The translations under genes and the position numbers were made by a program. From Owenia fusiformis (lineage: Eukaryota; Annelida; Polychaeta; Sabellida; Oweniidae), in contig CAIIXF020000003.1 in the NCBI GenBank assembly GCA_903813345.2, positions 17,312,931 through 17,376,930 of the forward strand: a stretch of 64,000 nucleotides of DNA, given 5' to 3'. The notes beneath the pieces are model-generated. The model was not told the origin of the DNA, made no database searches, and was given only the letters and a program-made list of their open reading frames with translations. Each line of letters starts with the position of its first letter. Positions within the stretch are counted from its first letter, which is position 1. Below are positions 455 to 42,950 of this stretch, piece by piece.

Positions 455-3400
455 ATGGATGTAGAAGAACTTGAAAAACTTGCTACAGCCAACCATAATG
501 AGTTCGACAGACAGTGGAATGACCATAACAGAAACTGGGAGAAACTTGTTGAAAATTTCTACACAACTGATGCTGTAATTTACCCCCCAGGCAGTCCACC
601 AGTGACTGGATTACAAGGTAGACAAGGCATTAACATGACAAAATGTCACCACCTAGTTGCTCACAATATTATGAGTTCAAACTTAAGTCAGATTTGAATT
701 TCTGAGAACTTGTAAAGTCAAATTTGAACTTCTGAAAAGATGTAGATGATTTTGAAAAAAAAAATTTGGTCAATTTGAAGCAAGTTGAAAACAGACCTTT
801 TTGACCTTTTTTGACCTTGAGAAGGTCATTAAAGGTCAAATGTCAAATCTAAAGTCAGATTTGAATTTCTGAGAACATGTAGATGATTTTGAAAAAAAAA
901 TTAGTCAATTTGAAGCAAGTTGAAAAAAGACCTTTTTGACCTTTTTTGACCTTGAGAAGGTCATTGAAGGTCAAATGTCAAATCTAAAGTCATATTTGAA
1001 TTTCTGAGAACATGTAGATGATTTTGAAAAAAAATTTAGTCAATTTGAAGCAAGATGAAAAAATACCTTTTTGACCTTTTTTGACATTGAGAAGGTCATT
1101 GAAGGTCAAATGTCAAATCTAAAGTCAGATTTGAATTTCTGAGAACATGTAGATGATTTTGAAAAAAAAATCTAGTCAATTTGAAGCAAGTTGAAAAAAG
1201 ACCTTTTTGACCTTTTTTTGACTTTGAGAAGGTCATTGAAGGTCAAATGTCAAATCTTAAGTCAAATCTAAAGTCAGATTTGAATTTCTGAGAACACGTA
1301 GATGATTTTGAAATTTTTTTTTAGTCAATTTGAAGCAAGTTGAAAACAGACCTTTTTGACCTTTTTTGACCTTGAGAAGGTCATTAAAGGTCAAATGTCA
1401 AATCTAAAGTCAGATTTGAATTTCTGAGAACATGTAGATGATTTTGAAAAAAATTAGTCAATTTGAAGCAAGTTGAAAAAAGACCTTTTTGACCTTTTTT
1501 GACCTTGAGAAGGTCATTGAAGGTCAAATGTCAAATCTAAAGTCATATTTGAATTTCTGAAAACATGTAGATGATTTTGAAAAAAAATTTAGTCAATTTG
1601 AAGCAAGATGAAAAAATACCTTTTTGACCTTTTTTGACATGAGAAGGTCATTGAAGGTCAAATGTCAAAGCTAAAGTCAGCTTTGAATTTCTGAGAATAT
1701 GTAGATGATTTTGAAAAAAAAAATTAGTCAATTTGAAGCAAGTTGAAAAAAGACCTTTTTGACCTTTTTTGACTTTGAGAAGGTCATTGAAGGTCAAATG
1801 TCAAATCTTAAGTCAAATCTAAAATCAGATTTGAATTTCTGAGAACACGTAGATGATTTTGAAAATTTTTTTTAGTCAATTTGAAGCAAGTTGAAAACAG
1901 ACCTTTTTGACCTTTTTTGACCTTGAGAAGGTCATTGAAGGTCAAATGTCAAATCTTAAGTCAGATTTGAATTTCTGAGAACACGTAGATGATTTTGAAA
2001 AAAAAATTTAGTCAATTTGAAGCAAGTTGAAAACAGACCTTTTTGACCTTTTTTGACCTTGAGAAGGTCATTGAAGGTCAAATGTCAAATCTAAAGTCAG
2101 ATTTGAAGGTCAAATGTCAAATCTAAAGTCAGATTTGAATTTCTGAGAACATGTAGATGATTTTGAAAAAAAATTTAGTCAATGTGAAGCAAGTTGAAAA
2201 AAGACCTTTTTGACCTTGAGAAGGTCATTGAAGGTCAAATGTCAAATCTAAAGTCAGATTTGAACTTCTGAGAACATGTAGATGATTCAGAAAAAAATTG
2301 AAGTCAGTCTAAACAGTATTTGTTAAGTTATAGGAAGTTGTAAGAAATTGTTACAGACGCCGGACGCCAACCGCCGGACGCCGTCGCAAAAAAACGGAGA
2401 CCATAACAATATGTCACCACTTTTGGTGGTGACATAATAAACAGCCAATCAGAACATGCTATATTCTGCAACAGATGAATATACAGTAAAACCTGTCTTA
2501 GTGAACACCTCTCTCTCTCGTGAGCACCTGTTTCTATTAGACAACCTTCCTCCGCACAAACTCTATCGACCTCTTTGTAGTGAACACCTACCAACACTGA
2601 ACGTTTTTCTCAGCAATTTTATGTTCAATATACACAGGTTTAACTGTAGTCAATAAATGTAGATTCAGTAAAATTTATTAACCTCTTGAATATTTGGGTT
2701 TGATGCAGGTTTTACTGTAGTAAATAAATGTAGATTCTGTAAAATTTATTAACCTCATGAATATTTGGGTTTGATGCAGGTTTTACTGTAGTAAATAAAA
2801 GTAGATTCTGTAAAATTTATTAACCTCTTGAATATTTGGGTTTGATTCAAACATGGAAGAGACGTTTAATTGCTCACTTGATATATCAAATACTGAAAAT
2901 TAATTTTTAAACAAACATTATTAAACTTTAACAAACACATATGCCATAAATCAGAACATAAGCATTCTACATTTTACAATGAATGGTTGTTTTTCCCTGG
3001 CCTAGATCTAGATTCAGTAAAATTGATAACCCTCACCAATTTCCAATTTCAACTAGCTATAGGCCATTCTACCTTCCCCCCCCCCCACCGGTTGGAAATA
3101 TTTATCCAGAAACCCAGCATCCCATTTATTATTTTCTTTTTAAAAATAGCTAGACTTAGAGGGAGAATCTGGAAAGTGGCCAGATGTCAAAATGATATGC
3201 CTGCCTGCAGTTGTATTGCATTTTAGAAAAATATTTGGCCATTTATGAAGAGAGATTCATTGCTTTTTTATGTACTATATACAGGGCTGTCAACTTGGGA
3301 CCACCTAATATGAGTGACTTCAAAATGTTGGACACCTAAGTCCAAATCTGAACACTTTTGTCCAAATTTTGAACACCTTTGGCCAACTTTTAAACACCTT

Positions 3401-6400: not shown

Positions 6401-6662
6401 CACTTTTTTATTATCACCAGTGTGTAATCTATAGACTAACATGCAAATTCTTGTACTTTCAGAACTTGTCACATATTCTTGTACTTTCAGAACTTGTCAC
6501 ATATTCTTGTACTTTCAGAACTTGCCACATATTCTTGTACTTTCAGAACTTGTCACATATTCTTGTACTTTCAGAACTTGCCACATATGGACCAATGTGA
6601 ATGGAGTGTGGAAAATGTTGCATGATTTCTGGAACAGTGATTATGAGAAAGTGAATTATTAG
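455..6662 (+). CDS. SnoaL/DUF4440-type NTF2-like small protein, three exons
   Basis: Exons 455-617, 4148-4292 and 6575-6662 join with matching phases (1, then 2) into 131 codons plus stop, the usual length of this fold. Exon 1 gives a helical start (MDVEELEKL..) and YTTDAVIYPPGSPPVTG, which fits the family pattern Y-x-x-DAV-x-x-PPG-x-PPV-x-G. Exon 2 begins DIARFF and carries a beta-strand region (FSIFTLQVTID). Exon 3 ends WTNVNGVWKMLHDFWNSD, the typical closing W-x-x-x-G-x-W-x-x-x-x-D-x-x-N-S. Family members are cone-shaped barrels, often of unknown substrate, related to the CaMKII association domain. No catalytic role can be assigned. The start is the first ATG in frame before the domain. 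Introns 1 and 2 are full of transposons. Poly-A signals AATAAA lie near 6784 and 6928. The gene lies inside the inferred BPHL transcription unit, on the opposite strand. Confidence 0.75.
622..2436 (+). mobile_element. Dispersed element with a satellite core (copy 1)
   Basis: The left terminus ACAAGGCATTAACATG is followed by ATGTCACCACC. The right end is a GC-rich tract (GCCGGACGCC repeats), then CGGAGACC and a hairpin ATGTCACCAC..GTGGTGACAT. Between them lie about a dozen tandem units of roughly 125-135 bp containing TTGAAGCAAGTTGAAAA, TTTTTGACC, GAGAAGGTCATTGAAGGTCA and TCTGAGAACATGTAGATGAT. The same element occurs at 11154-13011 (reversed) and 29583-30991. No transposase is present, so it looks non-autonomous. 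It begins at position +5 of intron 1 of the SnoaL-like gene. Confidence 0.75.
2484..2646. mobile_element. MITE, TIR CAGTAAAACCTGT, TA target site
   Basis: Terminal inverted repeats CAGTAAAACCTGT and ACAGGTTTAACTG enclose 163 bp with repeated AGTGAACACCT motifs, flanked by TA on both sides. Relatives lie at 20730-20912 and, as a fragment, near 63584. Confidence 0.6.
2647..2850. repeat. 72-bp tandem repeat, about 3 copies
   Basis: Three near-identical units of about 71-72 bp contain GTAGATTC.GTAAAATTTATT, CTTGAATATTTGGGTTTGAT and GGTTTTACTGTAGT. The unit includes the right end of the adjacent MITE, so the duplication happened after that insertion. Confidence 0.7.
2851..3281. other. Intron sequence, nothing recognised
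   Basis: AT-rich intron 1 sequence with a 10-base C run near 3075. No gene or element boundary was seen. Confidence 0.5.
3282..3522. mobile_element. MITE with 6-bp target duplication TATATA
   Basis: The TIRs are CAGGGCTGTCAAC and GTTGACAGGCCTG, and TATATA is present on both sides (3276-3281 and 3523-3528). The inside has GGACACC/GAACACCTTT repeats. It shares its TIR style and 6-bp duplication with the larger elements at 4318 and 18414. Confidence 0.7.
3529..4147. other. Rest of intron 1, nothing recognised
   Basis: Ordinary AT-rich sequence with a C-rich run near 4066-4076, ending in a good acceptor (TTTGCATTTGCAG) at 4147. Confidence 0.5.
4318..6346 (+). mobile_element. 2.0-kb DNA transposon, non-autonomous, 6-bp TSD
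   Basis: It starts CAGTACTGTCAA and ends TTGACAGCTCTG (revcomp CAGAGCTGTCAA). The flanks are CTAACA and CTCACA, a 6-bp duplication with one mismatch. Both subterminal regions are rich in TTCGCGGGA/GCGGGACA motifs. There is no transposase ORF. It fills most of intron 2 of the SnoaL-like gene and contains a second element at 5062-5932. The closest copy is at 18414-20570. Confidence 0.75.
5062..5932. mobile_element. Nested fold-back MITE with 8-bp TSD TTCTAGAT
   Basis: The ends are AGGGTTTGTATA and TATACAAACCCT, with arms of several hundred bases including a GGTACCGGGTAGTAAATCC block repeated in reverse, and G/C homopolymer runs near 5330 and 5650. The exact 8-bp duplication TTCTAGAT (5054-5061 and 5933-5940) is hAT-like. 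The same nested insertion is inside the element at 18414-20570, so it predates amplification of the host element. Confidence 0.75.
6447..6587 (+). repeat. 28-bp tandem repeat of a 3' splice site plus exon start, 5 copies
   Basis: Each unit is about 14 nt of intron end (CTTGTACTTTCAG) plus about 14 nt of exon 3 start (AACTTGTCACATAT). AG dinucleotides end at 6462, 6490, 6518, 6546 and 6574, exactly 28 bases apart. Only the last acceptor, or the one 84 bases upstream of it, keeps the reading frame of exon 3. The stretch is open in all three frames because a 28-bp repeat cycles the frames. Confidence 0.85.
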
Positions 6663-7410
6663 AATTGAAGATTACAGGATACTCAAGTGTTATGCATTTT
6701 TTAAAACATTTATTCGCCCTGGTGGCCATGGTCACCACAAGTGCACAACATAAATTTTCATATTTATTTAGTTTAATGAAATGAATAAATTGACTTATAT
6801 CACTTATTGAGATATAAATTACAGTTCATAAATTTAACTGAAACATTTCTTGTTGAGACATTGATGTGTATATTTATTGAAACTTTAATAATTATAAGAA
6901 TATAATTAATTAGCTATAAATATTCTAATAAAGGACCAACGGTCCTGTGCTCACACAGTGTTTTGTGCAGCCAATGATGATTGACTTTATACATGAGAAA
7001 GTTCCCTGAAAATGGCGAAGTCCAACTTTTTGTCAAATTTTATAGAGTAAACACCAAAAACTGTAATTTCAAGAGCTTTGAAATCTTCAGAGAACATAAG
7101 TTGCATATACAGCAACTACTACAAGTTCTACTTCAACAAAGTGTCTAGTATTTATAGAAAATTTGACTTTTTGACATCAAAATTAGCAATTTCTCGGAAA
7201 CCAAGCGAAAGTGGGAAATGGCGATAATAGGTCAAATAGGCATTATGGATATGCATAAAATGAATGTGGATATGACTCAATCCGAATAGCAGTTTTAATT
7301 TGTGCGGCTAATGTTGACGGACAAATGGGCGGACCAACGGACGGATGGCTTTCCTATATCTGACTTGAACTTTGTTCGGTGGGATAATAATGAAAATCTT
7401 AGACACATAC
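6663..7410. other. 3' flank of the SnoaL-like gene and BPHL intron 3
   Basis: Contains candidate poly-A signals near 6784 and 6928, then AT-rich sequence. No further BPHL exon is visible on the minus strand here or further left, so the BPHL C-terminal exons must be outside the window or lost. Confidence 0.4.
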
Positions 7411-7564
7411 CTGTAAATATTTCCATGTCCTTTTGGTGCACAAATGCATTAGAACCCCATATCACCATTGTGTTGACATTCTTGGGGTATGTAGCAGCAA
7501 GAATCATGGCTGTAATACCCCCATCACTCCAACCAAGCAGTGAGTATCTCTTATAACCAAGTGT
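7411..7564 (-). CDS. BPHL: BPHL-like hydrolase exon 3 with the nucleophile elbow
   Basis: A 154-nt exon runs from acceptor ATATGTTGCAG to donor GTATGT (just below 7411), in phase 0 at its start and phase 1 at its end. It encodes TLGYKRYSLLGWSDGGITA.. and ..NTMVIWGSNAFVHQKDMEI, matching remembered human BPHL (KVSLLGWSDGGITALIAAAKYP, KMVIWGANAYV). G-W-S-D-G holds the catalytic serine of this alpha/beta-hydrolase, a mitochondrial esterase/thiolactonase that in humans activates valacyclovir. The phase fits exon 2, which ends at 31437. The two repeat units just upstream carry the same acceptor 117 and 234 bases away, so three in-frame acceptors compete. The catalytic Asp and His exons are not in the window. 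Confidence 0.8.
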
Positions 7565-7934
7565 CTGCAACATATAACAACACAATTTATTAACATTGTT
7601 GGGGTATTTAGCAGCAAGAATCATTGCTGTAATACCACCATCACTCCAACCAAGCAGTGAGTATCTCTTATAACCAAGTGTCTGCAACATATAACAACAC
7701 AATTTATTGACATTGTTAGGGTATTTAGCAGCAAGAATCATTGCTGTAATACCCCCATCACTCCAACCGAGCAGTGAGTATCTCTTATTACCAAGTGTCT
7801 GCAACATATAACAACACAATTCATTGACACTGTTGGGGTATTTAGCAGCAAGAATCATTGCTGTAATACCCCCATTTTGGTGCACAAATGCATTAGAACC
7901 ACATATCACCATTGTGTTGACATTCTTGGGGTAT
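7565..7934 (-). repeat. 117-bp exon minisatellite, left part
   Basis: Two complete upstream units (acceptors preceding 7681 and 7798) and a chimeric third precede exon 3. In the chimera a second copy of the exon tail (SNAFVHQ) runs directly into NGGITAMILAAKYP. Reading on the minus strand stays open throughout. The outer edge at 7932-7934 (TAT) is where the CACTA-like element entered. Confidence 0.85.
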
Positions 7935-10684
7935 CACTATGTAAAATCCCATGATTAATACAGTATCATAAACCTATTAAACATACATATCAGTTGTTTT
8001 AATTCGTTTTAACCTGTTATCATAGGTTTATGTATAAGACATAATTATAACAATGAATGATACGGACTTTTTCGGAGTTTCTCCTCTGATACTTGTATAA
8101 TTTGTTTTAATTTGTTATCAGCTGTTATCAGCTGTTATATTCCATCTGGTTCAACTGGGAAAAACATATTATACTGGATGATACATTTCTCTGCTCTTGC
8201 GTATAATTTGTTTACATTAGGTTACATGTTGTTGACACAACATGTTGACACTATCTTGTTGACATAGACATATTGAGTGTTTTAATAAAAGCGGGTATTG
8301 ATAAATTAAGTTTTGACATTTGAAAGTTGTAATGAATTAATATAAATGATTTTTCAAAATAAGTCACCAGAAGTGATTAGTGCAGCAGTTGAAAGACATA
8401 TTTTAGTTTTACATTTATAACGTGCTTGCAAAAACACGGGCGTCCATTTAGATTATTAGCGGTTTTATTATAATATTGGATTGCTTCAATGCGCTCCATG
8501 AAAGAAAAATATGGGCACATTATTAATTGAAATCAATATGTCTTAATATTAAAGCTACATTGTTAACGGAGACAACGTAAGACTGCGACATTTTAAACCA
8601 TTTCAAAATTCGGTGTTTTTATTTCCATAACGGCTACTAGTATTTGTGTGCCATAGTTATCTCAGCTTTCGGGAATCACGGTTATCATGATTTAAGGGCA
8701 GTTATAAAAATATACAAGGCGATGGTTCAAAATGGACAATTTTCAAAACTGCTCAACTTCATGTTTTTAAAGAATGCTTGCCCGGCGAGGGGTTTGCTAT
8801 TGCGAGAGAACAAAAACATTGAATTTGGATTTTTCCTAATACGTAATCATTAATACTTAATACTTAATCATTAATCAGCAACTTTTTAAACCGTCTCTCT
8901 GATTAAATATCATGCCAATTAATACCACGATTGTGTTGACAGGATTAAATGCGATATCTATGGAATAATAATTTAATGAACTCAAAAGTCTAAATGATAA
9001 ATAAGTTTAGTCTTGGCTGACTAGTCTTGTATCATCAGAGTTGGATTGCAAATACCTCCCTAAATCAAATATTTATAATTGTTTTTATGTCTCTGATCCA
9101 ACCACTAAAGTTTAAAAGGAAGACTATAGTGTCCCGTGAATTCATTATCAATAGTGAAGCGGTACAATCGTGGGAGTGTTAATTAATCGGAATGCAAGTT
9201 TGATACAAAATAACTCCTTTGGATCAAATATTTAAATTTTACTAGAGTGCGGGGAGTGGAAACGAGTCTCCATTCAAGCACTAAATATCAAAAGAAAGAT
9301 TTCAGTACCCCTTAACTTCGCTCCCGGACTTCACTATTCACCACCTCCCCTCCCCTTTCCCCAATTATCTTTTATGACCCCAGATTGTTCGTTTCTGTGC
9401 CCCCCCCCTGTCCATGGCAAGTAAGTAATCTATTTGTATATCGGCTCCCTCCCAATGGTGGGCAAAACCAGATACAGGCATAGACATTGACAAGGTGAGG
9501 GGATTAAAAATAAAAATAGTTTTGTTTTAGGATCTGACCAAAATATTTTGGCACTGTTCAACGAAGCGGTTTAAGGAATTAGAGGCAGAAATAATTCCTA
9601 GATGACCTGTCTTTACTGTAATCAAGATGCTACCTAACCGCAGTTTTAAAAGTTATTTATCTTGTGATAATCTAATACTACTTATAGATTGGTTTTCCAA
9701 ATGTAAGACCCCGTATAAGACCCTTGTCTCTGATTGTGAAACATGTGTATGCATCAAATCCGAGGAATATTACATTATGTGAAACAATTCCAAAATGTTT
9801 TGTCTTGAACTCAATCAAATAGCAATATATTTCAACATGTGGAAATTGTTTATTAACGTAATGTCGGGCACTATAGTTGAACGGGTTTTCAGTTTTGCTC
9901 TTTTTTGTCACACTTAAATTGTGTGCTTTATTTATTTGGAATTTGAATTTGAAAGGGTGAATTCACATCCAATAAAGCTTATAGTATCATTTATTAACAG
10001 ATGCATCGAGGTAGAGCCACCGTTCAAAAGACATAAACATAACTCTGTCGAGTGCAATAAATACATGCATATCCATTTGTTGCCATTATACGGCCAGACC
10101 AGGGGAACACAGATACCCTTCGCATTCTTACATTGTCCGCATGTCAACCATACGGCGACCGCACAGTCAGCCTGCCTTTCGCACCTCTCATACACGTGTA
10201 CAAATTCTAAGATCATATTAATTACCATTGATTCCTCGTTTTCAATCCCTGGTTTTCAAAGACCGTTAGATGTTAATGAATGGAGATTTTTAAATGTGCT
10301 TTCATTAAACAGCCAGGAAAAATAAACTATTTTTCATTTCCCAGGAATCACATAATCCGTCAAAATTCATTTAATTTAAAATGTATCTAATATATTACAT
10401 GTATACAATCAGACAGACTGGCTATTCTAATCCGTTATGAAAAGCCATTTGTTTTTTCCTCTACAGGATGTTTCTGCGGAAGTTAATTTGTTTATCTTAG
10501 TGTTTAGAGGCAATGTCCTTTGACGCTTTCGTGAAATAAATGAACTCTGTGATGGACTACAATTGTATATTTTTACAGGAACAGTTACCCGAAGTAGACC
10601 ACTGTTACATTATTTTCATTTTAGGTCTCTCTAATTAGTTGCATTGCAGAAGTCTAATATTATTCTCTCCTGTGCCGAAGGTAC

Positions 10685-11153
10685 TTATACCCGTAGCCAA
10701 GGGGGGGGGGTGTTCAAGGAGTCCAACTCAACAGAATTCGAATTGAATACAAAATAAATTCATAACATATAAATATATAAATACATAATGTCTATCCAAG
10801 TCTTCTTGCATTTTCTGAACTTCAAATGCGCCTTTTGATGTGTGATAACAAAATACTAAATAAATACTTAATGTTACTCCAGCTTGTTTTTATAGTAATT
10901 TGGCAATTAAACATGCATAAAGAGATATCAATGTGTGTATCTGTGTACAACCCGAATCCTCTCCCGATCAGGTCACGTTTTATATGTCTCTGATGTAATA
11001 ACTGCCCTGTCAACCCTCACGCATTAGGCGTGATTGTTACGCATTTGCTGGAAAAATAGAAATCACGCATCAATTTAGCGTGTATGATCAAATATCACGC
11101 AAATCACGGATTTTGTCGAAATTTTTAAAAATCGTTTTTATATATTTTTATAC
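10685..11153. other. MITE end and CACGC-rich fragment inside the CACTA element
   Basis: A MITE terminus CCGTAGCCAAGGGGGG begins near 10692. A partner-like end (CCCCCTGGCTACGGG) is at about 13345-13362 beyond the satellite element. A CTGTCAACCC/ATCACGC-rich fragment at 11005-11115 resembles the 6-bp-TSD family. Confidence 0.35.
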
Positions 11154-13011
11154 ATATTGTTATGGTCTCCGTTTTTTGCGACGGCGGTTGGTGGTTGGCG
11201 TCCGGCGTCTGGCGTCTGGCGTCCGGCGTCTGTAACAATTTCTTACAACTTCCTATAACAAATACTGTTTAGACTGACTTCAATTTTTTTCTAAATCATC
11301 TACATCTTCTCAGAAGTTCAAATCTGACTTAAGATTTGACATTTGACCTTCAATGACCTTCTCAAGGTCAAAAAGGTTTTTTTTCAACTTGCTTCACATT
11401 GACTAAATTTTTTTTCAAAGTCATCTACATGTTCTCAGAAATTCAAATCTGACTTTAGATTTGACATTTGACCTTCAAATCTGACTTTAAATTTGACATT
11501 TGACCTTCAATGACCTTCTCAAGGTCAAAAAGGTCTTTTTTCAACTTGCTTCGCATTGACTAAATTTTTTTTCAAAATCATATACATGTTCTCAGAAATT
11601 GAAATCTGACTTTAGATTTGACATTTGACCTTCAAATCTGACTTTAGATTTGACATTTGACCTTCAATGACCTTCTCAAGGTCAAAAAAAGGTCAAAAAG
11701 GTCTGTTTTCAACTTGCTTCAAATTGACTAAATATTTTTTTCAAAATCATCTACGTGTTCTCAGAAATTCAAATCTGACTTAAGATTTGACATTTGACCT
11801 TCAATGACCTTCTTAAGGTCAAAAAGGTCTATTTTCAACTTGCTTCACATTGACTAAATTTTTTTTCAAAATCATCTACATGTTCTCAGAAATTCAAATC
11901 TGACTTTAGATTTGACATTTGACCTTCAAATCTGACTTTAGATTTGACATTTGACCTTCAATGACCTTCTCAAGGTCAAAAAAGGTCAAAAAGGTCTGTT
12001 TTCAACTTGCTTCAAATTGACTAAATTTTTTTTTCAAAATCATCTACGTGTTCTCAGAAATTCAAATCTGACTTAAGATTTGACATTTGACCTTCAATGA
12101 CCTTCTCAAGGTCAAAAAAGGTCAAAAAGGTCTGTTTTCAACTTGCTTCGAATTGACTAAAAAAATTTTTCAAAATCATCTACGTGTTCTCAGAAATTCA
12201 AATCTGACTTTAGATTTGACTTAAGATTTGACATTTGACCTTCAATGACCTTCTCAAAGTCAAAAAAGGTCAAAAAGGTCTTTTTTCAACTTGCTTCAAA
12301 TTGACTAAATTTTTTTTTCAAAATCATCTACATGTTCTCAGAAATTCAAATCTGACTTTAGATTTAACATTTGACCTTCAATGACCTTCTCAATGTCAAA
12401 AAAGGTCAAAAAGGTCTGTTTTCAACTTGCTTCGAATTGACTAAAAAAAAAATTTCAAAATCATCTATGTGTTCTCAGAAATTCAAATCTGACTTTAGAT
12501 TTGACTTAAGATTTGACATTTGACCTTCAATGACCTTCTCAAAGTCAAAAAAGGTCAAAAAGGTCTTTTTTCAACTTGCTTCAAATTGACTAAATTCTTT
12601 TTTCAAAATCATCTACATGTTCTCAGAAATTTAAATATGACTTTAGATTTGACTTTAGATTTGACATTTGACCTTCTCAAGGTCAAAAAAGGTCAAAAAG
12701 GTCTGTTTTCAACTTGCTTCAAATTGACCAATTTTTTTTTCAAAATCATCTACATCTTTTCAGAAGCTCAAATTTGACTTTACAAGTTCTCAGAAGTTCA
12801 AATCTGACTTTAGATTTGACCTTTGACCTTCAATGACCTTCTCAAGGTCAAAAAGGTCTTTTTTCAACTTGCTTCAAATTGACTAATTTTTTTTTCAAAA
12901 TCATCTACATGTTCTCAGAAGTTCTTCTTAAGGTCAAAAGGTATTTTCCAACTTGCTTTAAATTGACCAAATTGTTTTAGGTGGTGACATTTTGTCATGT
13001 TAATGCCTTGT
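11154..13011 (-). mobile_element. Satellite-core element (copy 2, reversed)
   Basis: Reverse orientation of the element at 622-2436: it starts with GGTCTCCG and the GCGTCCGGCGTCTGGCG tract, passes through about a dozen TGACCTT-rich units, and ends GGTGGTGACAT..CATGTTAATGCCTTGT. The far hairpin end is missing. It is nested in the CACTA-like element. A perfect DR1 (TGACCTTTGACCT) lies near 12817. Confidence 0.75.
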
Positions 13012-13164
13012 TTGTGAAATGCCGACACGGTAAAATACCGAACGGCGAAAAAAGCGAACGCATTCCGTTCGGTCTTTGCACGCGATTGCCGTTTATGTCA
13101 CACATTTGGTACAAAATATGTGTATATATCACGCATTTGTTTCGAAAATATTCACACCTACCTA

Positions 13165-13365
13165 TTTGATTGAAATCATTCAAATCAAAGTTTTCTAAAA
13201 TGTCTAGGGGGTTCACATTTGACAATTTTGGTCCAAATTTGGCTAAAATCACAAGAGAAATGCTCAAAATGGTGAAAAACTGCATGATTTTGAAAGAATC
13301 TTTGGCCAGGGGGGTTGGCCCGAACCATGCGAACCCCCCCCCCCCCCCTGGCTACGGGCCTGCCT
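13165..13365. mobile_element. C-run MITE fragment
   Basis: A block with GGGGGTTCACATTTGACAA, GCATGATTTTGAAAGA and a long C run ends CTGGCTACGGGC. The same family lies at 31205-31395 in the opposite orientation. Confidence 0.45.
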
Positions 13366-13655
13366 ATAATCTATAATACTCATTTATTTAAACAAATATT
13401 AATTTATCCGTCTGTCTGATTAGATTTTGTTCCCTGACTCAAACCAGAGACATATAAAACATATATATTTTATATGTCTCTGCTCAAACAAAGTCAACGC
13501 CGATTTCAGTTCTTAATTCTTCACTTGAAACGATATAGCCAACATGATACAACATGAATTTGGATTAATTATACATATATAAAGCCTATTGTTATCAAAA
13601 CCTATAAATCCTCACCACATAAATATAGTTTTATTGATGACCAAAAACAGATATC

Positions 13656-13857
13656 AGGGGCGTAGCCAGCTTTCAGTCAGGGGGGAGGGGGTGCGATCGC
13701 CAAAAAGATTTCGGTTTTCAGTCAGGAGGGTACGATTGTGGCCTGAGCAGCATTTTAAAGCTCCTTTCTTCTTTCTCAGGGTTTTATTTTTATTGTTAAG
13801 GGGGGGGGGGGGGTGCGATCGCACCCATCACAACCCCCCCCCTGGATACGCCCACGA
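13656..13857. mobile_element. Short MITE, ends GGGCGTAGCC / GGATACGCCC
   Basis: About 200 bp bounded by GGGGCGTAGCCAG and CTGGATACGCCC with internal GGTGCGATCGC blocks and G/C homopolymers. Related ends recur near 5345, 5618, 15621, 19620 and 19887. Confidence 0.45.
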
Positions 13858-14549
13858 ATATTTTGGCAACTTCCACGTTTACCCCCCCCCCCCCCCCTAA
13901 TCATTTTTGCGCCCCCTCTAAATATCAGACCAATCAGGCGATGAGGCATGGATCAGGATACCCTGACTCCCAAGCTCTGCGACTTCTGGCAACCGCTACA
14001 CCTATATTCCCGGGGGAAATGCTTTTTCCTTTGAAATATTATCAAATATGGTCGTGTGTGGGCAAACACGGAGGAGGAGGAGAGGGGTGCGTGCATTGCG
14101 TGCGATCCCTCATCAGTTGTGTACCTTATTTTTGTATGAATTTCTCCCGAACAGTTATGCTAGAGGGGTTATAATATTTATTTCTGTTTTCAAATGAAAT
14201 AATTTCACCCTTGCCCGATTGGCTATAATGCACGAATCAAATATTAGCATGGAGATCAGATAATTAGATTGATTTGTTTTTTCGCAATCAGATGAATTAA
14301 CTTATTGTTTTCTCTGATTAAAAGGCGGTTTGAAGCTACTTTTATAGGATTTGTAAATTCGCAATCAGACTGGCTTATTTAAATATTTAGTCAGTGCAAG
14401 AGGAGGGGACTATAATGTAGAAAATCGTTTTGATTTCGACACTAACTGAAATAATTTATCACAATAAATTGTTTAATACGGAAACAGAGACCGGTTTAAA
14501 AATGAAAAGAGAGGCAAAAAACTCTATTCATACAATGTAATTAAAACCC

Positions 14550-15235
14550 GGGAATTAAAAGCAATTTTAGACTGTTAGATCTTCTGTAATCAAGGTGATG
14601 TTGGTACACTTCCACCGTTAGAAAAACAAAGACTAAGACAAAGACTATATAGCAATTAATCCTTTTGTAATCATTAAATGTTAAATGTAGATTCATTTTA
14701 TTTCGTTGGACAATGTTCAGACTTCTGACCAAGATTTATTCATTTATCTTTGTATTTAAAAAATAGTATTTCAATCAGACAGACGTTCTAATGAGTTAGA
14801 AAAATACATTTGTCCATCACCTCTCAAGAAGTTTTCAAAAGTAATCAAGTCGATTTGTTTATTTTAGTGTTTAGCATTGTTTTTCATAACTTGACGCTTC
14901 CATGAACAGAATGACTTTGAAATGAGTATTTATAATTTTAGCTTTTATACGACATGCTTATTGTATATTTCGATATGAACGTTGTAGTTATGTGGTGTAA
15001 CATCGCCCCTCCCAAATTACAGGTATACAACTTTTGGTCGGAATACTTTAACTTGCGATTAAAAGCAATTTTAGACTGTTAGATGATCTCTTATGTAATC
15101 TAGGTGATGTTGGTAGACTTCCGCAGTTAAGAAAACAAAGACTAAGACAAAGAGAACTATATAGCAATTAATCCTTTTGTTATCACTAAATGTTAGATTC
15201 TTTATTGGACAATATTTTGACTTCTGTCTCCGATT
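14550..15235. repeat. Direct duplication, about 190 bp, offset about 510 bp
   Basis: Blocks starting near 14557 and 15060 share AAAAGCAATTTTAGACTG, CAAAGACTAAGACAAAGA and AGCAATTAATCCTTTTG with moderate divergence. This is internal structure of the CACTA-like element. Confidence 0.6.
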
Positions 15236-15617
15236 GTTATGCAGATATGTGTATATAATCATGTGAACAACATATTACGTGGAAATTCCCATATTTATTC
15301 TCATAATGTCTTACAGCTATGTCGCAAATGACATGCATGTAAGCCTAAATAACATGTGGACGTAATATTGCAGAACTGAGCGAAAAGAAAGGTTGAAAAA
15401 TTAGATTAAGATATTTTATTTTTTAAATGCACAAGGGCAACAGTCGAAGAGCAAAAATTAAAGGCGTTGTGAAATAGATCGTGCTTTTGTATGATCCTCT
15501 TCTATAGTGCCCTACCCTTTGCATTCGTTCGACTTCACTTCTTAAAAGAGAGTTTCGTCTTCTCGTAGTATATAACTAGACTCTGCACATAGCGTAATAG
15601 TGCCCCTATTAGCCATG

Positions 15618-15675
15618 TACAGGGGCGTAGCAAACTCGGGGGGGGGGGAAGGGGGGGGGGGGTGCGATTGCCAAA
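15618..15675. repeat. Poly-G and MITE-end fragment
   Basis: GGGGCGTAGC is followed by two long G runs and GTGCGATTGCC. It looks like one end of the GCGTAGCC MITE family; no partner end was identified. Confidence 0.35.
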
Positions 15676-16159
15676 AAAAAACAATATCGGATTTCAGTCT
15701 GAGACAAATGGTCAAACATGAGTTTCAAAAAACTTCTAGAATTACCTTATGTAAATATTTACGTTAGCTTGTTTAATTAAGGTCTGACGTTATGAAAACA
15801 AAGTGCCATTAATTTCTGAACCGTATAATACAGTATCATCTGTTTGGTCTCGGTATATTCCAGTTTAATTTGTATTATACAAAAAATGATATGTATAATT
15901 TGTATTATACCACTTTGAAAGCTGTTATAATAGAAAATGATATGCGTATAATACTGTTTAATCTGATCCTCACTTAAATTATATCAGGTTAAACTGGAAT
16001 ATATTTTGGTTTAATCGGGTATCATTCTCTAATGATATTTGAGTCCGGATCAGATGTTATAATATTGAATGATACTTTCTGTGATATTGGATTAAACAAC
16101 AAATTAAACATCAATATAAGATGTTATCACAAGTATTAATCATAGGATTTTACATAGTG

Positions 16160-18089
16160 TATGTAGCAGCAAGAATCATTGCTGTAATACCCCCATCACT
16201 CCAACCAAGCAGTGAGTATATATCTCTTACTACCAAGTGTCTGCAACATAAAACAACACAATTTATTGACATTGTTGGGGTATTTAGCTGCAAGAATCAT
16301 TGCAGTAATACCCCCATCACTCCAACCAAGTAGTGAGTATCTATTACAACCAAGTGTCTGCAACATATAACAACACAATTTATTGACATTGTTGGGGTAT
16401 TTAGCAGCAAGAACCATTGCTGTAATAGCCCCATCACTCCAACCAAGCAGTGAGTATCTCTTATATCAAAGTGTCTGCAACATATAACAACACAATTTAT
16501 TGACATTGTTGGGGTATTTAGCAGCAAGAATCATGGCTGTAATACCCCCATCACTCCAACCAAGCAGTGAGTATCTCTTATATCCAAGTGTCTGCAACAT
16601 ATAACAACACAATTTATTTACATTGTTGGGGTATTTAGCAGCAAGAACCATTGCTGTAATAGCCCCATCACTCCAACCAAGCAGTGAGTATCTGTTATAA
16701 CTAAGTGTCTGCAACATATAACAACACAATTTATTGACATTGTTGGGGTATTTAGCAGCAAGAATCATTGGTGTTATACCCCCCACCACTCCAACCAAGC
16801 AGTGAGTATATTTTGTAACCAAGTGTCTGCAACATATAACAACACAATTTATTGACATTGTTGGGGTATTTAGGAGCAAGAATCATTGCTGTAATACCCC
16901 CATCACTCCAACCAAGCAGTGAGTATCTCTTATAACCAAGTGTCTGCAACATATAACAACACAATTTATTGACATTGTTGGGGTATTTAGCAGCAAGAAT
17001 CATTGATGTAATACCCCCATCACTCCAACCAAGCAGTGAGTATCTCTTATATCCAAGTGTCTGCAACATATAACAACACAATTTATTGACATTGTTGGGG
17101 TATTTAGCAGCAAGAATCATTGCTGTAATACCACCATCACTCCAACCAAGCAGTGAGTATCTCTTATAACCAAGTGTCTGCAACATATAACAACACAATT
17201 TATTGACATTGTTGGGGTATTTAGCAGCAAGAATCATTGCTGTAATACCCCCATCACTCCAACCAAGCAGTGAGTATCTCTTATATCCAAGTGTCTGCAA
17301 CATATAACAACACAATTTATTAACATTGTTAGGGTATTTAGCAGCAAGAATCATTGCTGTAATACCCCCATCACTCCAACCAAGTAGTGAGTATCTCTTA
17401 CAACCAAGTGTCTGCAACATATAACAACACAATTTATTGACATTGTTGGGGTATTTAGCAGCAAGAATCATTGATGTAATACCCCCATCACTCCAACCAA
17501 GCAGTGAGTATCTCTTATATCCAAGTGTCTGCAACATATAACAACAAAATTTATTGACACTGTTGGGGTATTTAGCAGCAATAATCATTGCTGTAATACC
17601 CCCATCACTCCAACCAAGCAGTGAGTATATATCCTTACTACCAAGTGTCTGCAACATAAAACAACACAATTTATTGACATTGTTGGGGTATTTAGCTGCA
17701 AGAATCATTGCAGTAATACCCCCATCACTCCAACCAAGTAGTGAGTATCTCTTATATCCAAGTGTCTGCAACATATAACAACACAATTTATTAACATTGT
17801 TGGGGTATTTAGCAGCAAGAATCATTTCTGTAATACCCCCATCACTCCAACCAAGCAGTGAGTATCTCTTACAACCAGTGTCTGCAACATATAACAACAC
17901 AATTTATTGACATTGTTGGGGTATTTAGCAGCAAGAATCATGGCTGTAATACCACCATCACTCCAACCAAGCAGTGAGTATCTCTTATATCCAAGTGTCT
18001 GCAACATATAACAACACAATTTATTGACATTGTTAGGGTATTTAGCAGCAACAATCATGGCTGTTATACCCCCATCACTCCAACCAAAA
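16160..18089 (-). repeat. 117-bp BPHL-exon minisatellite, 17 units
   Basis: Seventeen units, counted by the CTCCAACC block (revcomp of the G-W-S codons), are spaced 117 bases apart with a few 115-121-base exceptions. Each unit is about 25 nt of intron end (TGTTGTTATATGTTGCAG) plus about 92 nt of exon 3, so it carries its own 3' splice site. On the minus strand 117 = 39 codons, giving long open stretches that repeat YSLLGWSDGGITAMIL, AAKYPNNVNK and LCCYMLQT. The unit at the 5' (right) end is cut at about 18087 and lacks an acceptor. The CACTA-like element now separates this array from exon 3, so it is probably intronic. Confidence 0.9.
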
Positions 18090-18413
18090 TTTTTGACTAA
18101 TAGCCTTGTCATTTGTCACATTTAAAATATACTTGTCATATTTTGTAAGTTTCATTCCTTTTTAGTCAGTTAATGCAACAAATGGTTTGTTATGTTTTAT
18201 TACTGGTTTTCCTGGTTTTACTGGATTACTGGTTAGAATAAGTCACATTTACTATTTACATCAGAACAAATTTTCTATTTTAATCATTCTCAAAACACTT
18301 GTCAATCGGATGAATGTTTGTCACATTCGTTCATTTTTAAATACCCCAAAGTCACATTTAGTCACATTTTTAGGGGCCAGGTAGCCTTGTCGCCCTTGTC
18401 ACATACCCCTTGG
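18090..18413. other. BPHL intron, nothing recognised
   Basis: AT-rich sequence with several GTCACATTT motifs. No gene or element ends seen. Confidence 0.5.
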
Positions 18414-20570
18414 CAGTACTGTCAACCCCCAAAGATTTTCTCGCGGGACAGATTTTTTAGACCCAGTGCCCAAAATTCGCGGGATTTTGCGGGACATCTA
18501 CTAAATTCGCGGGATTTCGCGGGACATTTAAGGGATTTGCGTGATTGCGCTAATAGGCCAAATTTTTTATCAAATTCGCGGGATTTCGCGGGACCATTCG
18601 AGGGACAAACACCCTAATTGCGGGACAGTTAACAGGTTTACCACCAAAAACTTCATAGAGGGACAGATTTTTTAGACAAAGTGCCCTAAATTTGCGGGAT
18701 TTCGCGGGACATCCACCTAAATTTGCAGAATGTCTCGGGACATTCAAGGGATTTGCGTGATTGGGACTAATGTAAAAGCGTGTAAAAGTACTTAAATCAA
18801 ACTTTCAGATACTGATTAATCAAATATAATGCACCTTTACATTGTAACTTAAATAAACGTCGACACAATTTTACAAAATACGCATAGGAATATTATTTAG
18901 CTTTATTGTAATTTATCAAAAACAAAAAACATGCTTCAGGTGTGACAGAGGTTTCATTAGAAGCAGGCAACAGGCGATTTTCACCGGTTGTTTTCACAAA
19001 ATCGCCTGTTGTTCTTAGAGACTTTTCAACTTATCCATGTTAAATTTATGATTTCCATTAATTTTGCCTGTTGTTTTCATTTATTTAGCCTGTTGTGAGA
19101 AATTCTAGTAAAACCCCTGTGTGAGTACCGTAATCTAACACGAAATTCAAAAATTCGGAACAATACTTTGCACTTCTGGCGTCGTGACCAACTATGAAAC
19201 GCTTACCCCCATAATGTTATATATTAAAATGTACCCATTCATATACTGTAGGCATGGGCTTTCAATTGAAAGCCCATGATATAGGGGTTCGATTAATCTA
19301 CATCAAATTATAGGGAATGAGGTTACTTTTCTAGATAGGGTTTGTAGAAAAACCGGGTACCGGGTAGTAAATCCTCCATGCTGGGTTCAAACTTGGTACC
19401 CGGTCGAAAAAACCGGATACCCAAAAAACGAAATATACGAATATACAACATAATTAGATCATTAGAAAACGTGTAAGATTTGTTTTGAATTTACAAAAAT
19501 GTATGTAACTTCCTTCAAAATTGAGCTAGAAGCTTCAAATAAAAAGCATTTTAAGGCTCTTTTCTTCCTCTATGGTCATATTTTAATGGTAATGAAGGGG
19601 GGGGGTGCGATCACACCCCCTCCTGGCTACGCCAATGACATTGTAAGACGATTTGAAAAACAAGACAAATCAATCTTACTCTATTTTCAATAGTTCGTAT
19701 GTTGGGACGTAAATTGTTTTGATTATGATTTAAATCTGTAAATATCGTTGCTTTAGCAGAGAGCTGAAGTGTGTTAATTTACATGATGCAACGTGTAAGA
19801 TTTTGATTATTAATCATAATTTAAGTTATCCTAATTTTCGACAAAATGTCCACTGAATTGTAAATTGTTATGTCTTACAATGTCATAGGCGTAGCCAGGA
19901 GAGGGTGCGATGGGTGCACCCCCCCCCATAACCAATGAAAATATGGCCATGACGATAGAGGAAGAAAATAGCCTTAAAATATGCTTTTTATTTAAAGCTT
20001 CTAGCTCAATTTTGAAGGATGTTACATACATTTTTGTAAATTCAAAACAAATCTTACACGTTTTCTCATAATCTAATTATGTTATATATTCGTATTTTTC
20101 GTTTTTTGGATACCCATTTTTTTTGACCCAGCATGGTACCCGGTTTTTTCTACAAACCCTTACTAGATATCAGCGTCCATTTATTGTAACTTGCGTTTGC
20201 TAACATTTGCTCAGTTCTAAGATGAAGGCCACACGGGTAGTAAGGCCAACGTTGGAACTATTTGTGACCTACATCTCTATTTTCGTAATTAAAATGAAAG
20301 TTGAACCCTTCCTCTTTATTTTGATACCAAACAACAGCATGCTAGGTACTTAAAATTAGGTAAACTTTACTCCTCCAAAGTGCAAAAACTTAGCTTCTTA
20401 TATAAGATAAGATAATCACAATATAGGGGATTGCAACAATTTCGGAAATTCGCGGAGGTCAAAGCCACAATTGCAGGACTTCGCGGGACATTGCGGGACA
20501 CGCGAATCGGCCTAATTTTGATCAAATTCGCGGGATAATCCCGCCATTCGCGGGACACTTGACAGCTCTG
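18414..20570 (+). mobile_element. 2.2-kb DNA transposon, exact 6-bp TSD CCTTGG
   Basis: Second large copy of the family at 4318-6346: starts CAGTACTGTCAACCCC, ends GACAGCTCTG, flanked on both sides by CCTTGG (18408-18413 and 20571-20576). It carries the same nested fold-back element (19337-20160) plus a small extra hairpin near 18945-19125 (CAACAGGCGATTTT..AAATCGCCTGTTG). It ends 400 bp upstream of the MTARC start codon. Confidence 0.8.
19337..20160. mobile_element. Nested fold-back MITE, second copy
   Basis: Counterpart of 5062-5932, with left flank TTCTAGAT and right flank TACTAGAT. Its right arm is shortened relative to the first copy. Confidence 0.65.
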
Positions 20571-20729
20571 CCTTGGGGAGCCCCCTGATGAACTATAGGC
20601 AGTTTTCATATATTTATCTCTATACAAATATAATTGGATTTTGTGAACTTAACTTAACTTTGTATAACTCTCATTTACTTGTAGGTTGTTATGATAAAGG
20701 CCATAAATTAAGAGCATGTTTGTAAAATA

Positions 20730-20912
20730 CAGTAGAACCTGTACATAGTGAACACCTATAGAGCCACAAAACACAAAAAAGTGTTCACTGTAGGTAGGTT
20801 TTCACTACAGAGAGGGGTTTTACACAGATGTTCATGTAAAATGTATCTTGAAGTGGAGATCACTAAAACAGATGTTCACAAGAGAGAAGTGTTCACTAAG
20901 ACAGGTTCTCTG
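20730..20912. mobile_element. MITE, TIR CAGTAGAACCTGT, TA target site
   Basis: 183 bp with ends CAGTAGAACCTGT and ACAGGTTCTCTG, TA on both sides, and repeated AGTGAACAC/GTGTTCACT motifs in both arms. It lies 58 bases before the MTARC start codon, so it probably overlaps the MTARC promoter or 5' leader. Confidence 0.65.
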
Positions 20913-20970
20913 TAAATGTATTACGTGCAAAGTTCAGTCTTCCTCAAAACATACTACACAGTAGATTAAC

Positions 20971-23900
20971 ATGGAGGAAAGTTACCTATTTTTAGGGCTA
21001 TGTACCTTTACTATAGTCAAGTTTTGCAGTATTTTGATGGTAAACAAGAACAGAATTAGAAATGCCCCAATCGTTGGGACACTTGCTGGAATTTTTATCT
21101 ACCCAATTAAATCTTGCAAAGGGATCAAGGTAGAGGAAGCAGAATGTACATGGGAAGGCTTGAAATGCTTTGAAGCCAAGGACAGGTAAAACATGTTTTG
21201 TATTCCTCGCCCGTAGCCAAGGGGGTTTTTGAACGAATTGCGTTCATTTTTTCAGCGTTCGTTTTTTTATTTATCGGCATTCGTTTTTTGAACTTCTACA
21301 AAAATATTTTTGCTTGACAATTATCAGGTAAAATGCGTGACATATTCAAAAAAAGTTGCCGTGACTTCAATTACTTCAGCAAATGCGTGACAAATATGCA
21401 AATTGCGGGACACTTGAACTGTATTCAATATGTAAATTTTGCATTTACAGACTAATATGAATGTATTTATTCATATAATATTGCACTCTGGTCTTTAATA
21501 AACTTACACTTTTCCAGACATTGTACAGGGTGGTCAAAAAAATGGGAACCCTGCATTTTCCTCATATCTTTGTCATTTTGAAAAATTTTCCCTGATATTT
21601 CACACATTTGTAAATCATTCAATTTCCTACCACCCTACCATATTTCATGACCATTAGACTGATAGTCACAATTCAACAGCACTTTGAACAACATGCTTCA
21701 GGTTTGGCCAACATCGCGCAGATTTCTCTACACCGCAATAGTGGCCACCGGGAATGTTCTTTAAAGTGCTGTAACACTGTGACTATCAATCTGATGGTCA
21801 TGAAATATAGTAGGCTGGTAGGAAATTGAATGATGTACAAATGTGTAAAGTTATTTCTTAAGATGACAAAGATATTCAGAAAACGGTGTAAGGGTTTCCA
21901 GTTTTTTGACCACCCTGTATTACACTTTTCCAGACACTTGATGATAATCAATTTACACTTTTCCAGACATTGGATAATAAAACCTACACTTTTCCAGACA
22001 CTGGATGATAATAAACAATGATAACAGAATGATAACAGCCAGAGATGAGCCAACCTTGCTACTTATTAATCCCAGTTTCCATGGCAACATGATGCATCTC
22101 GATGCCCCTGGTATGCCTACAGTGAAAGTGCCTACTGAACCTAACATAGAGGGTGCCTTAGTTTACACAGTAAAGTATGTATATCAAAACATAAATGAAA
22201 CACCCCTCTGCAAGACACACCTCTCCACGTACATGCAACAGTTTTCAAAAGACAAGTCCCATTTACATGTAGTTAATTATTCAAGTTACCCTTTGCATTC
22301 GTTTGACTTTGCATCTTAAAAGAGAGCTTCATCTTCGCAGTTTATAACTAGATTCTGCACACAGGGTAATGTTCTGTAAAGTTACAGGAAATCCTCACTT
22401 GAGGAACACCTATTTACAAAGTACAATATTGGATAGTGCAGAGAGTCTATTCTATAGAGAGGGGTTTAACTGTATGCTTGATATAAACATATCATACTAA
22501 GGTTGTGAGGCAAGGAAGGCTGGTGAGGTAAATTGCCTCATCAATCTTGCACAAAGATATTAATTGAGCTCTTACAAGCTTAAAGTTGCCTCACCAATTT
22601 AAGGTTGCCTCACCAATTTAAAGTTACCTCACCAATTTGAATTTGCCTCACCAATTTAAAGTTACCTCACCAATTTAAATTTGCCTCACCAATTTAAAGT
22701 TACCTCACCAATTTAAAGTTGCCTCACCAATTTAAAGTTACCTCACCAATTTAAAGTTGCCTCATCAATTTAAAGTTACCTCACCAATATGAATTTGCCT
22801 CACCAATTTAAAGTTACCTCACCAATTTAAATTTGCCTCATTAATTTAAAGTTGCTTTACAGATTTGATGCCTCACTACTTTCAATTCTAGATTCATTCC
22901 TTGCATGAGCCTTCTAGCTTTACCTACCAATTATGTCTATACCAATAAACTAAATGCGAGTAGAAATAATCTCGATTTGCGTCATTAAAAATTCAAAATT
23001 CAGTCAAAGTGATATCATATTTGAAATCTATGTTTCGAATGTTTACCAACTTTGAAAATTCAATTTTCTTTGGAACTATGAGATTCCCCATAGACACGAT
23101 GTTGTAAAATCACAAATAGTAAAATATCTTTTCTTGTATTGGACAGATAATATTTTCTTTTACTGGACATATTTAAAATTTGTATAAATATCAGATACAT
23201 AAGGGTGTTATGAAAATTGAACAACAAAAACTAATGAAGTTTAGGGGAATTTTCAAATACCCTGAATTAGCCACCTGGAGGCTAAAGTGGTAACTACCTA
23301 CTCACATCTGGGTATTTCCTTCTCTTTTTCCAAGCAAAACATGTCAAACCCTTAACTCATTCGCTACTAAGGACTTGATATGACGTCATAAAGCACATAT
23401 GTTGACTACTAAGGACGTGATATCAAGTCCAAGCACAAACCCAATGTATTTTTGGGAATCTTGTAACCATGACAACTTATAAAATGGGACTTAAAAAACT
23501 ATTCATTCTGAAAGAGTATATCATATGCTTTAAAATGATATATAACACTATATATGTATGCCCATGTATATACAATATATATTATTTCAGAGGTACCATA
23601 TATGGCAATTTTCAAAATATCGTCAGTATTATAGTGCTTTTTGCCCCAGTATTGAATGAGTTAAACCTCACCAATCTAATAAGATTTCTAATCTAGTACA
23701 CAAAATTTGTGCCATAGGGTATTTGGGCATGTGAACAAGGGCATGGACTGTGGACAAGAGGTGTCTGATTGGCTAAGTGAATACCTGAAGAGGCCTGGCA
23801 CAAAACTTATATACCAACATCCTAAATTAGAACTACCCGATGTCGCAGATGAAAATGCAAGAACATCTGATAAGGTTATAATAAATGATGTTTATATTAA

Positions 23901-31436: not shown

Positions 31437-32151
31437 CTCCATCAAGGAAGCTGCATCATCAGCATCCCTCTGTAGAAACATGAGTGGCCAATCACGTGCA
31501 GGAGGTATGCTCTTCCCATAACCCCTCGGGTCCCATGCTACTACAGTATATTTGTCTCTGTTTAGCTTCTCTAGCTGTGGCCCAAAATCTGTTCTTGTAG
31601 ACCCTTGATGATCAAAACAAGCAAAAATATATATTTATACGTACCAGTATTCAGAAAAAAGGTAAAACAGTCAAGTTTTAATATTAGATTAAACAAGAAT
31701 TTTGAAAACCAAATAGGTAAGTAACCTTTTTTATTCAATTGAACCATGGCATCGTTTACATTCCAGATATATACTTTTTAAGGAAGCCACCATAAAATGA
31801 GTATTATAAGACATTTTACACGTTGACTTGCATATTGATTTATAAACAAATATATCCCATTGTGTCTACTCAAACACAATTTAGCAACAACCTTTGCAAG
31901 GATTAATATAGATAAAAGTATTCAGGATTTTGGGATACGGTAGAACCCATTACCCCTATGTCCCTTAAAGAACACTAACCTAATGCACCTGGCAAGAGAA
32001 GAACCACATGTTTTCCTGCACCAGCTGTCTCATAGTGTAGCTTTACACCATTCACATCAACCTTGGCAGAAGTGATCCCCAGATTGTCTGTTACAACATT
32101 GTCTTGATTTGGCTTCATACTGCTGGACATTCTAGTAGTGATGTTCAACAT
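31437..32151 (-). CDS. BPHL: BPHL-like hydrolase, coding exons 1-2
   Basis: Exon 1 (32151-31980) encodes MLNITTRMSSSMK.. then TSAKVDVNGVKLHYETAGAG and HVVLLLPGALG, ending in phase 1. Exon 2 (31603-31437) encodes STRTDFGPQLEKLN, YTVVAWDPRGYGKS and RDADDAASLME, ending in phase 0 at a GTAGGA donor. Both align with remembered human BPHL (VAVNGVQLHYQQTGEG, VVAWDPRGYGHSRPP). H-Y-E-T-A-G-A-G plus L-L-L-P-G-A is the oxyanion-side start of the hydrolase fold. An acceptor TTTGTTTTTTCAG just upstream of the ATG implies a 5' non-coding exon. The basic N terminus is short for a mitochondrial leader. Exon 2 splices in phase to exon 3 at 7564, or to any minisatellite acceptor. If joined once to exon 3, the nucleophile is Ser126. 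Confidence 0.85.
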
Positions 32152-35256: not shown

Positions 35257-35320
35257 TCGAGAGCTACTTAGATTTTGAAAGTATAGCTATACTTTCAAAA
35301 TCTAACATGGTAGCTCTCGA
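35257..35320. repeat. Near-perfect palindrome
   Basis: GTCGAGAGCTAC and TAGATTTTGAAAGTAT are repeated in reverse about a central AGCT, giving arms of about 28 bases with a small bulge. It would extrude as a hairpin and may be a tiny fold-back element. Confidence 0.75.
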
Positions 35321-36490: not shown

Positions 36491-36737
36491 TAGGCTACCC
36501 CCATAAATGTGGGGTTGATTTTTCAAATCACCCCACAATGACTAGACTAGTAGGCTACTTGTGTATTGAAAACTTGGGGTTGTCAAACGTTGTCAGTACT
36601 TGACACAAGATGCATTTTATCTAAATAATCACTAACCCAGCCTATTTTCAACCCCAAGATTTCAATACATAAGAAGTTGTGATGGCGATATGAAAAAATC
36701 AACAGGGAATCAACCCCACATTTATCTATAGGCCTAC
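36491..36737. mobile_element. Fold-back MITE
   Basis: Arms TAAATGTGGGGTTGATT (near 36503) and AATCAACCCCACATTTA (near 36708) with outer TAGGC/GCCTA ends. Inner CTTGGGGTTG/CAACCCCAAG is also inverted. No clear target duplication. Confidence 0.65.
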
Positions 36738-38714: not shown

Positions 38715-42867
<4,153 letters not shown>

Positions 42868-42950
42868 TTTGGATTGTTATATTGTGTAAAACGACAGCGT
42901 CGATTTGGCTTTCTTTTTTATGCTCGTAATGACCGTTGCTAACACACAAC

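Follow-up and report, generated by a model that had tools for sequence, protein, structure and literature searches.

Minisatellites across splice acceptors in three genes of the annelid Owenia fusiformis resemble the 'mirages' of amphioxus

Minisatellites that lie across exon-intron boundaries have been described in amphioxus as 'mirages', e.g., in Adh3, globins, TnC and PGBD5 (PMC3087553, PMC3902484). In the sections of these papers available to us, the coding transcripts are said to be normally spliced, and both length polymorphism and somatic instability are reported for these arrays. The available text of the former paper also holds the proposal, made for the mirages, that introns are gained through tandem duplication of segments containing AG/GT. 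A further minisatellite with a splice site in its units dates from 1995 and is cited in PMC4526556 (its title also appears in PMC2572611); as cited there, its units contain donors and its repeats serve alternative isoforms.

The window analyzed here is a chromosomal stretch of 64,000 nt from Owenia fusiformis. In three unrelated genes of this window (NTF2-like, BPHL-like hydrolase and MARC/MOSC), we found tandem arrays whose unit consists of an intron tail, an AG and an exon start. An earlier note on this DNA had described such arrays, and they are confirmed by TRF and, for NTF2 and MARC, by exact protein matches. The note had also pointed to an amphioxus parallel, which does exist in the form of the mirages, and had taken it as a hint to the organism; this hint was wrong, as the host is an annelid, whereas that of the mirages is a cephalochordate. 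So far as the available text describes the mirages, they and the Owenia arrays both have tandem units comprising a splice junction, a short intron part and an exon part, and acceptors and donors are affected in both. The tandem unit includes an exon-intron boundary, as is characteristic of a mirage, in our arrays A1-A3 and in four arrays outside the window (L045, L061, L064 and L068). Unlike the mirages in the sections available, one Owenia array comprises about 20 units, interrupted by transposon-like inserts. The 1995 case, as cited, shares with Owenia the splice site within the unit and differs in its donors and its isoforms. The proposed route of intron gain likewise copies splice signals by local tandem duplication, but it yields a new intron, and the Owenia arrays show none.

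The features of the NTF2-like gene are as follows.

455..617, plus strand: exon 1 (coding part); exons 1-3 together give the exact sequence of Owenia protein P0016
4148..4292, plus strand: exon 2, exact translation; AG before 4148, GT donor after 4292
6436..6440, plus strand: CTAAC, resembling a branch point, immediately before the first A1 unit; sole yUnAy match in 6420-6600
6447..6588, plus strand: array A1 (TRF: 28 nt x 5.1, 97% matches, score 270; units listed)
6575..6662, plus strand: last exon (coding part), exact translation; begins at the fifth AG of A1

Joining these three exons reproduces exactly the 131 aa of P0016, for which Pfam PF02136 is precomputed; a Pfam search with an incomplete NTF2 composite returned no family. 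The A1 unit is ATTCTTGTACTTTCAG (16 nt of intron end with its AG) followed by AACTTGYCACAT (12 nt of exon start). There is no consensus branch point, yUnAy, within the unit. The CTAAC, a putative branch point, lies 23 nt upstream of the first AG of A1, and because of this position a plain first-AG rule predicts the use of unit 1, not of the fifth.

The BPHL-like gene has the following features.

31437..31604, minus strand: exon 2; ends ATGGAG before GT; its junction with ACACTTGG of exon 3 is in frame
16159..18087, minus strand: far part of array A2 (TRF: 117 nt x 16.4, score 3373; units listed)
7935..16159, no strand assigned: apparent 8.2-kb insert in A2, flanked by TAT; its inverted ends are CACTATGTAAAATCC
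7876..7934, minus strand: what appears to be a degenerate duplicate of the later exon 3 sequence, fused to a truncated A2 unit
7473..7875, minus strand: near part of array A2 (TRF: 117 nt x 3.4, score 736; units listed)
7411..7564, minus strand: real exon 3, whose start is the last A2 unit; ends in a GT donor

Exons 2 and 3, when joined, match Abhydrolase_1 (E 5.5e-16), and exon 3 matches valacyclovir hydrolase 2ocg (E 4.3e-15); an annotated Owenia BPHL protein was not found among the 120 of 937 matches listed. Each 117-nt unit has 25 nt of intron and 92 nt of exon. From the sequence, we read the near and far parts as a single complex, divided by the degenerate exon copy and the 8.2-kb insert. 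TTGCAG is kept in 19 of the 19 complete units, although one of the search patterns used presupposes TTGCAG. Rare variants recur 12 units apart (17790/17673 and 16382/16265), which is the trace expected of multi-unit block copying.

The features of the MARC gene are given next.

20971..21185, plus strand: exon 1; the seven exons of the gene translate exactly to Owenia protein P0001
21504..21525, plus strand: outlying A3 unit, with an acceptor before 21518, severed from A3 by the insert
21526..21917, no strand assigned: putative MITE-like insert within A3, with inverted ends CAGGGTGGTCAAAAA and TA on either side
21920..22014, plus strand: array A3 (TRF: 31 nt x 3.0, score 139)
21998..22174, plus strand: exon 2, exact translation; matches Pfam MOSC_N (E 1.5e-24) and begins at the final A3 AG

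P0001, of 310 aa, is reproduced exactly by translating the seven exons. The A3 unit has about 14 nt of intron end with the AG, followed by the exon start. In two of the three genes (NTF2 and MARC), the annotated proteins use the last acceptor. The claim that branch points are absent from the units is true of A1 and A2 in their intron parts; it does not hold for the exon part of the A2 unit, where there is one consensus match (CTCAC), or for A3, in which some yUnAy matches are present.

To place these arrays in context, we considered how common tandem arrays are. Among 21 random 10-kb stretches (210 kb), their coverage has a mean of 14.0% and a median of 9.0%, compared with 16.0% for the window. 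Because the Owenia genome is so rich in tandem repeats, a process aimed at boundaries is unnecessary. A Pfam search with two translated units of random arrays found no family, and a codon-based exon search of the random stretches gave 103 candidate segments, which were discarded as too mixed.

Splice sites outside the window were sampled from 85 exons found by Pfam match in the same genome, comprising 65 SNF transporter exons (fetched from 107 rows) and 20 myosin exons (from 92). The SNF rows left out mostly had stops inside the match, but include several stop-free rows. We counted an acceptor if it scored at least 3 and the match was not at the domain start (67 passed of 85 exons), and a donor if it scored at least 2 and the match was not at the domain end (61 of 85). 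PF00501 was also considered as a source of exons; its 14 matches were each near-complete in a single frame, implying few introns, and it was therefore unused. In this sample, TRF arrays span acceptors in 2 of 67 cases (L064, L068) and donors in 2 of 61 (L045, L061), so that both 5' and 3' boundaries are affected in Owenia. SNF exons alone give 2/47 donors and 2/49 acceptors, many of them from one paralogue cluster on C2 and thus not independent, and myosin exons give 0/14 and 0/18. Array coverage is 2-6% on the exon side and 5-12% across the 160-180 nt of intron next to it, and the profiles around splice sites have no peak at the boundary. Separately, a diverged donor-spanning array (L037) was found by eye and is not among the scored counts, and a weak array (L050, score 51) crosses the end of a match where no donor was scored.

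The earlier note had proposed that 3' splice sites, never 5' ones, are recurrently duplicated along with exon starts, by a mechanism perhaps linked to transcription or splicing. Within the window this pattern stands: arrays span 3 of 13 acceptors and 0 of 12 donors, so that all three boundary arrays are at acceptors. Ten of the 12 scored donors were checked by coordinate; the other two, those of tubulin, fall within 34960-44530, a region for which TRF lists no array. However, since Fisher's test gives p = 0.22, these counts are compatible with chance, and outside the window the pattern fails, as acceptor arrays do not clearly exceed donor arrays (2/67 versus 2/61, with L037 in addition). Equal frequency at donors is what the note itself had named as contrary to its claim. 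The units of 46 random arrays include 5 with an acceptor-like signal and 3 with a donor-like one (p < 0.05; 2.3 expected of each), which also fails to favor acceptors, although this test is too weak to be used as evidence. Nothing points to a process directed at exon starts in Owenia, because arrays span exon ends equally often in the sample from outside the window, and we regard such a process as very unlikely. Arrays might instead be preferentially born or kept at boundaries of both kinds, e.g., through fragility at R-loops or paused polymerase, or because they are cheaper there than within exons. The SNF loci have 4 spanned sites of 96, where 1.8 are expected if founding units are placed at random (P of at least 4 = 0.11) and 1.03 from the rate of their own 12 arrays (P about 0.02, by hand). 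The window has 3 of 25 against 0.80 expected (P = 0.047), but was chosen for the finding. On the other side, whole-array coverage alone predicts 13.4 (mean) or 8.6 (median) of the 96, the 32 additional myosin sites gave zero, the resulting 4 of 128 does not differ significantly from the approximately 2.4 extrapolated from the SNF rate, and the coverage profile lacks a boundary peak. A modest general excess at both kinds of boundary may exist, but a preference of this kind is unlikely. It is similarly unlikely that fragility linked to transcription or splicing enriches arrays at both kinds of boundary while the spliceosome reliably skips identical upstream acceptors (five in NTF2) for the last one.

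Selection could also maintain the extra acceptors, as alternative acceptors or decoys. In translation, two acceptors in the near part of A2 (7798 and 7681) are open into exon 3, with an in-frame gain of 39 or 78 residues; acceptor 2 of A1 adds 28 residues to give a 159-aa protein with a normal C-terminus. However, acceptors 1, 3 and 4 of A1 alter the C-terminus, reading from any of the 16 far A2 acceptors meets a stop, and each of the three MARC acceptors before the last leads to early termination. Moreover, no isoform of other length is among the three Owenia proteins listed for the NTF2 query, which are the gene product and two paralogues (P0017, P0018), each of 131 aa. The intron part of the A2 unit is less variable than the exon part (3/25 versus 27/92 variable columns), which could reflect selection on acceptors, but the difference is not significant (p = 0.12) and we dropped this idea. 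Overall, selection of this kind is improbable. Mis-assembly is easy in tandem arrays, but artefact is the least credible explanation: variants differ between units, unrelated inserts interrupt A2 and A3, and the published assembly, in its available description, was built starting with PacBio reads (PMC9977687). The annotation is described there as drawing on RNA-seq in general.

We therefore consider it probable that A1-A3 are ordinary minisatellites that were born across splice sites and tolerated, like the amphioxus mirages. Against a background of frequent array birth in the Owenia genome, local tandem duplication of short segments would by accident have straddled an intron-exon junction. 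Unequal exchange or slippage would later have made the arrays grow and shrink. The arrays would have survived because splicing of the gene to the copy adjoining the complete exon stays possible, with the acceptor copies upstream presumably ignored. Some observations weigh against this reading: the two counts of boundary arrays that hint at an excess over chance (in the window, and in the SNF loci by the rate of their own arrays), the lower variability of the A2 intron part and the first-AG prediction for A1.

What is new here is an annelid case of boundary-spanning minisatellites, together with a first rough frequency: beyond the window, 4 of the 128 splice sites scored are spanned. Such minisatellites are thereby extended from cephalochordates to an annelid. 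Genes with serial near-identical acceptors (NTF2 has five) offer natural experiments in the choice of 3' splice site, and arrays that span splice sites are a proposed source of new introns.

The window maps to positions 17312931-17376930 of contig C3 in an Owenia fusiformis assembly of 498 Mb; the genome is described in PMC9977687 as spanning 505.8 Mb, with 43.02% repeats and an annotation guided by RNA-seq. Three genes of the window carry tandem arrays across an acceptor, as the earlier note had observed. The composite of MOSC exons (MARC gene) is identical over its full length to a 310-aa Owenia protein, and the NTF2-like query matches a 131-aa Owenia protein at 100% identity. Exon 3 of the BPHL-like hydrolase gene matches valacyclovir hydrolase (2ocg; E 4.3e-15), and exon 2 ends in ATGGAG followed by GT, with an in-frame junction to ACACTTGG at the last AG; no annotated Owenia BPHL protein was among the matches listed. 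The MARC gene (20971-28526) lies nested, on the opposite strand, within the long intron 2 (31437-7564) of the BPHL-like gene.

Arrays identified with TRF (unit lengths are intron tail + exon start) and the insert in A2
6447-6588: A1, NTF2-like gene, unit 16+12 nt
7473-7875 and 16159-18087, minus strand: A2, BPHL-like gene, unit 25+92 nt
7935-16159: 8.2-kb insert in A2, inverted ends, TAT at both flanks
21920-22014: A3, MARC gene, unit about 14+17 nt

Each unit of A1-A3 consists of an intron tail with its terminal AG and the start of the next exon. For NTF2 and MARC, use of the last AG gives exactly the annotated protein. Of the 19 complete units of A2, 16 lie in the far part and 3 in the near part; between the two parts are the insert and a degenerate copy of the later portion of exon 3. 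Column 104 carries the same variant in the real exon and in the unit lying directly upstream of the insert, as would be expected if this unit once continued into an exon copy. Rare variants are common to units 17790/17673 and 16382/16265, twelve apart, and mean unit distance is lowest (6.25) at lag 12, a value based on four pairs only; other lags up to 13 give 7.0-11.0. The insert looks non-autonomous because no stop-to-stop frame >135 aa was found inside it. It also holds a long satellite-like array (11317-12924), present too at 713-2107 and 29675-30785. In A3, one unit is cut away behind a MITE-like insert with TA at both flanks.

The consequences of using other acceptors were predicted by translation. 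In A1, acceptor 5 yields the annotated NTF2 protein, acceptors 1, 3 and 4 would alter the C-terminus, and acceptor 2 would add 28 residues in frame. The sole yUnAy match, CTAAC at 6436, is 23 nt upstream of the first AG and 135 nt upstream of the used exon. No isoforms were seen among the three NTF2 proteins listed (the gene product and two paralogues, of equal length). The three earlier MARC acceptors would lead to early stops. In A2, all 16 far acceptors would lead to stops, and the two near acceptors are predicted to remain open into exon 3, adding 39 or 78 residues.

The earlier note had further proposed that such duplication affects 3' and never 5' splice sites. In the window, arrays span 3/13 acceptors (MARC 6, NTF2 2, BPHL 2, tubulin 3) and 0/12 donors (6, 2, 2 and 2, respectively; p = 0.22); the tubulin gene was identified by reading its translation, without a family search, and its sites lie in a region without TRF arrays. 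An independent sample was drawn from exons matching PF00209 (SNF transporters; 65 of 107 rows) and PF00063 (myosin; 20 of 92 rows), with flanks of 150-300 nt per side, and an array was counted as spanning with a TRF score of at least 50, a period of at least 6 and at least 6 nt on either side of the site. Arrays cross 2/49 acceptors and 2/47 donors in the SNF set, and 0/18 and 0/14 in the myosin set. The two acceptor-spanning arrays are 107 nt x 2.0 (L064) and 61 nt x 3.6 (L068), and the two donor-spanning arrays 35 nt x 4.5 (L045) and 119 nt x 2.1 (L061); in L037, TRF left diverged copies of the donor unjoined. The pooled counts, 2/67 acceptors and 2/61 donors, thus do not favour acceptors, and the proposed specificity finds no support.

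Arrays probably fall on boundaries by random placement. In 21 random 10-kb stretches we found 73 arrays (coverage mean 14.0%, median 9.0%), and random placement of founding units with the periods of these arrays would span 0.019 of sites. This rate predicts that 1.8 of the 96 SNF sites are spanned (P = 0.11 for at least 4) and, by arithmetic, about 2.4 of all 128; array coverage around the scored sites has no boundary peak. Counting against plain random placement are the rate within the SNF loci themselves, which predicts 1.03, and the window, with 3 spanned sites where 0.80 are expected (P = 0.047). A modest overall excess of arrays at boundaries is possible.

Other repeats were also observed. 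On contig C9 (G000:C9:37986009-37994334, minus strand), twelve tandem matches to one myosin head stretch, about residues 18-84, suggest a tandemly duplicated exon of one myosin gene, perhaps mutually exclusive. L015 holds a pair of arrays (L015:6116-6314 and L015:9374-9572, each 96 nt x 2.1) with a strong donor score for the unit and, in one of the pair, a strong acceptor score as well; on the minus strand the unit resembles an entire 30-nt micro-exon including its two splice sites. A 92-nt unit in about 102 copies (L006:1-9362) includes an acceptor-like stretch (shuffle p = 0.035), and its translation matched no Pfam family. Within the window, 33519-34001 is a degenerate TTAGGG tract inside the chromosome (80.8 copies, 64% matches), and 6941-7341 is a dispersed element with at least 47 matches on many chromosomes at 86-92% identity (40 candidates scored).

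The original paper on amphioxus Adh is reportedly that of Canestro et al. 2002. No report of boundary-spanning minisatellites in annelids was found among the papers listed, a scope that does not establish absence. Mirages, the amphioxus minisatellites that span exon-intron boundaries, are described in PMC3087553 and PMC3902484. The boundary arrays of Owenia are a true observation of a known kind of structure in a new host group.
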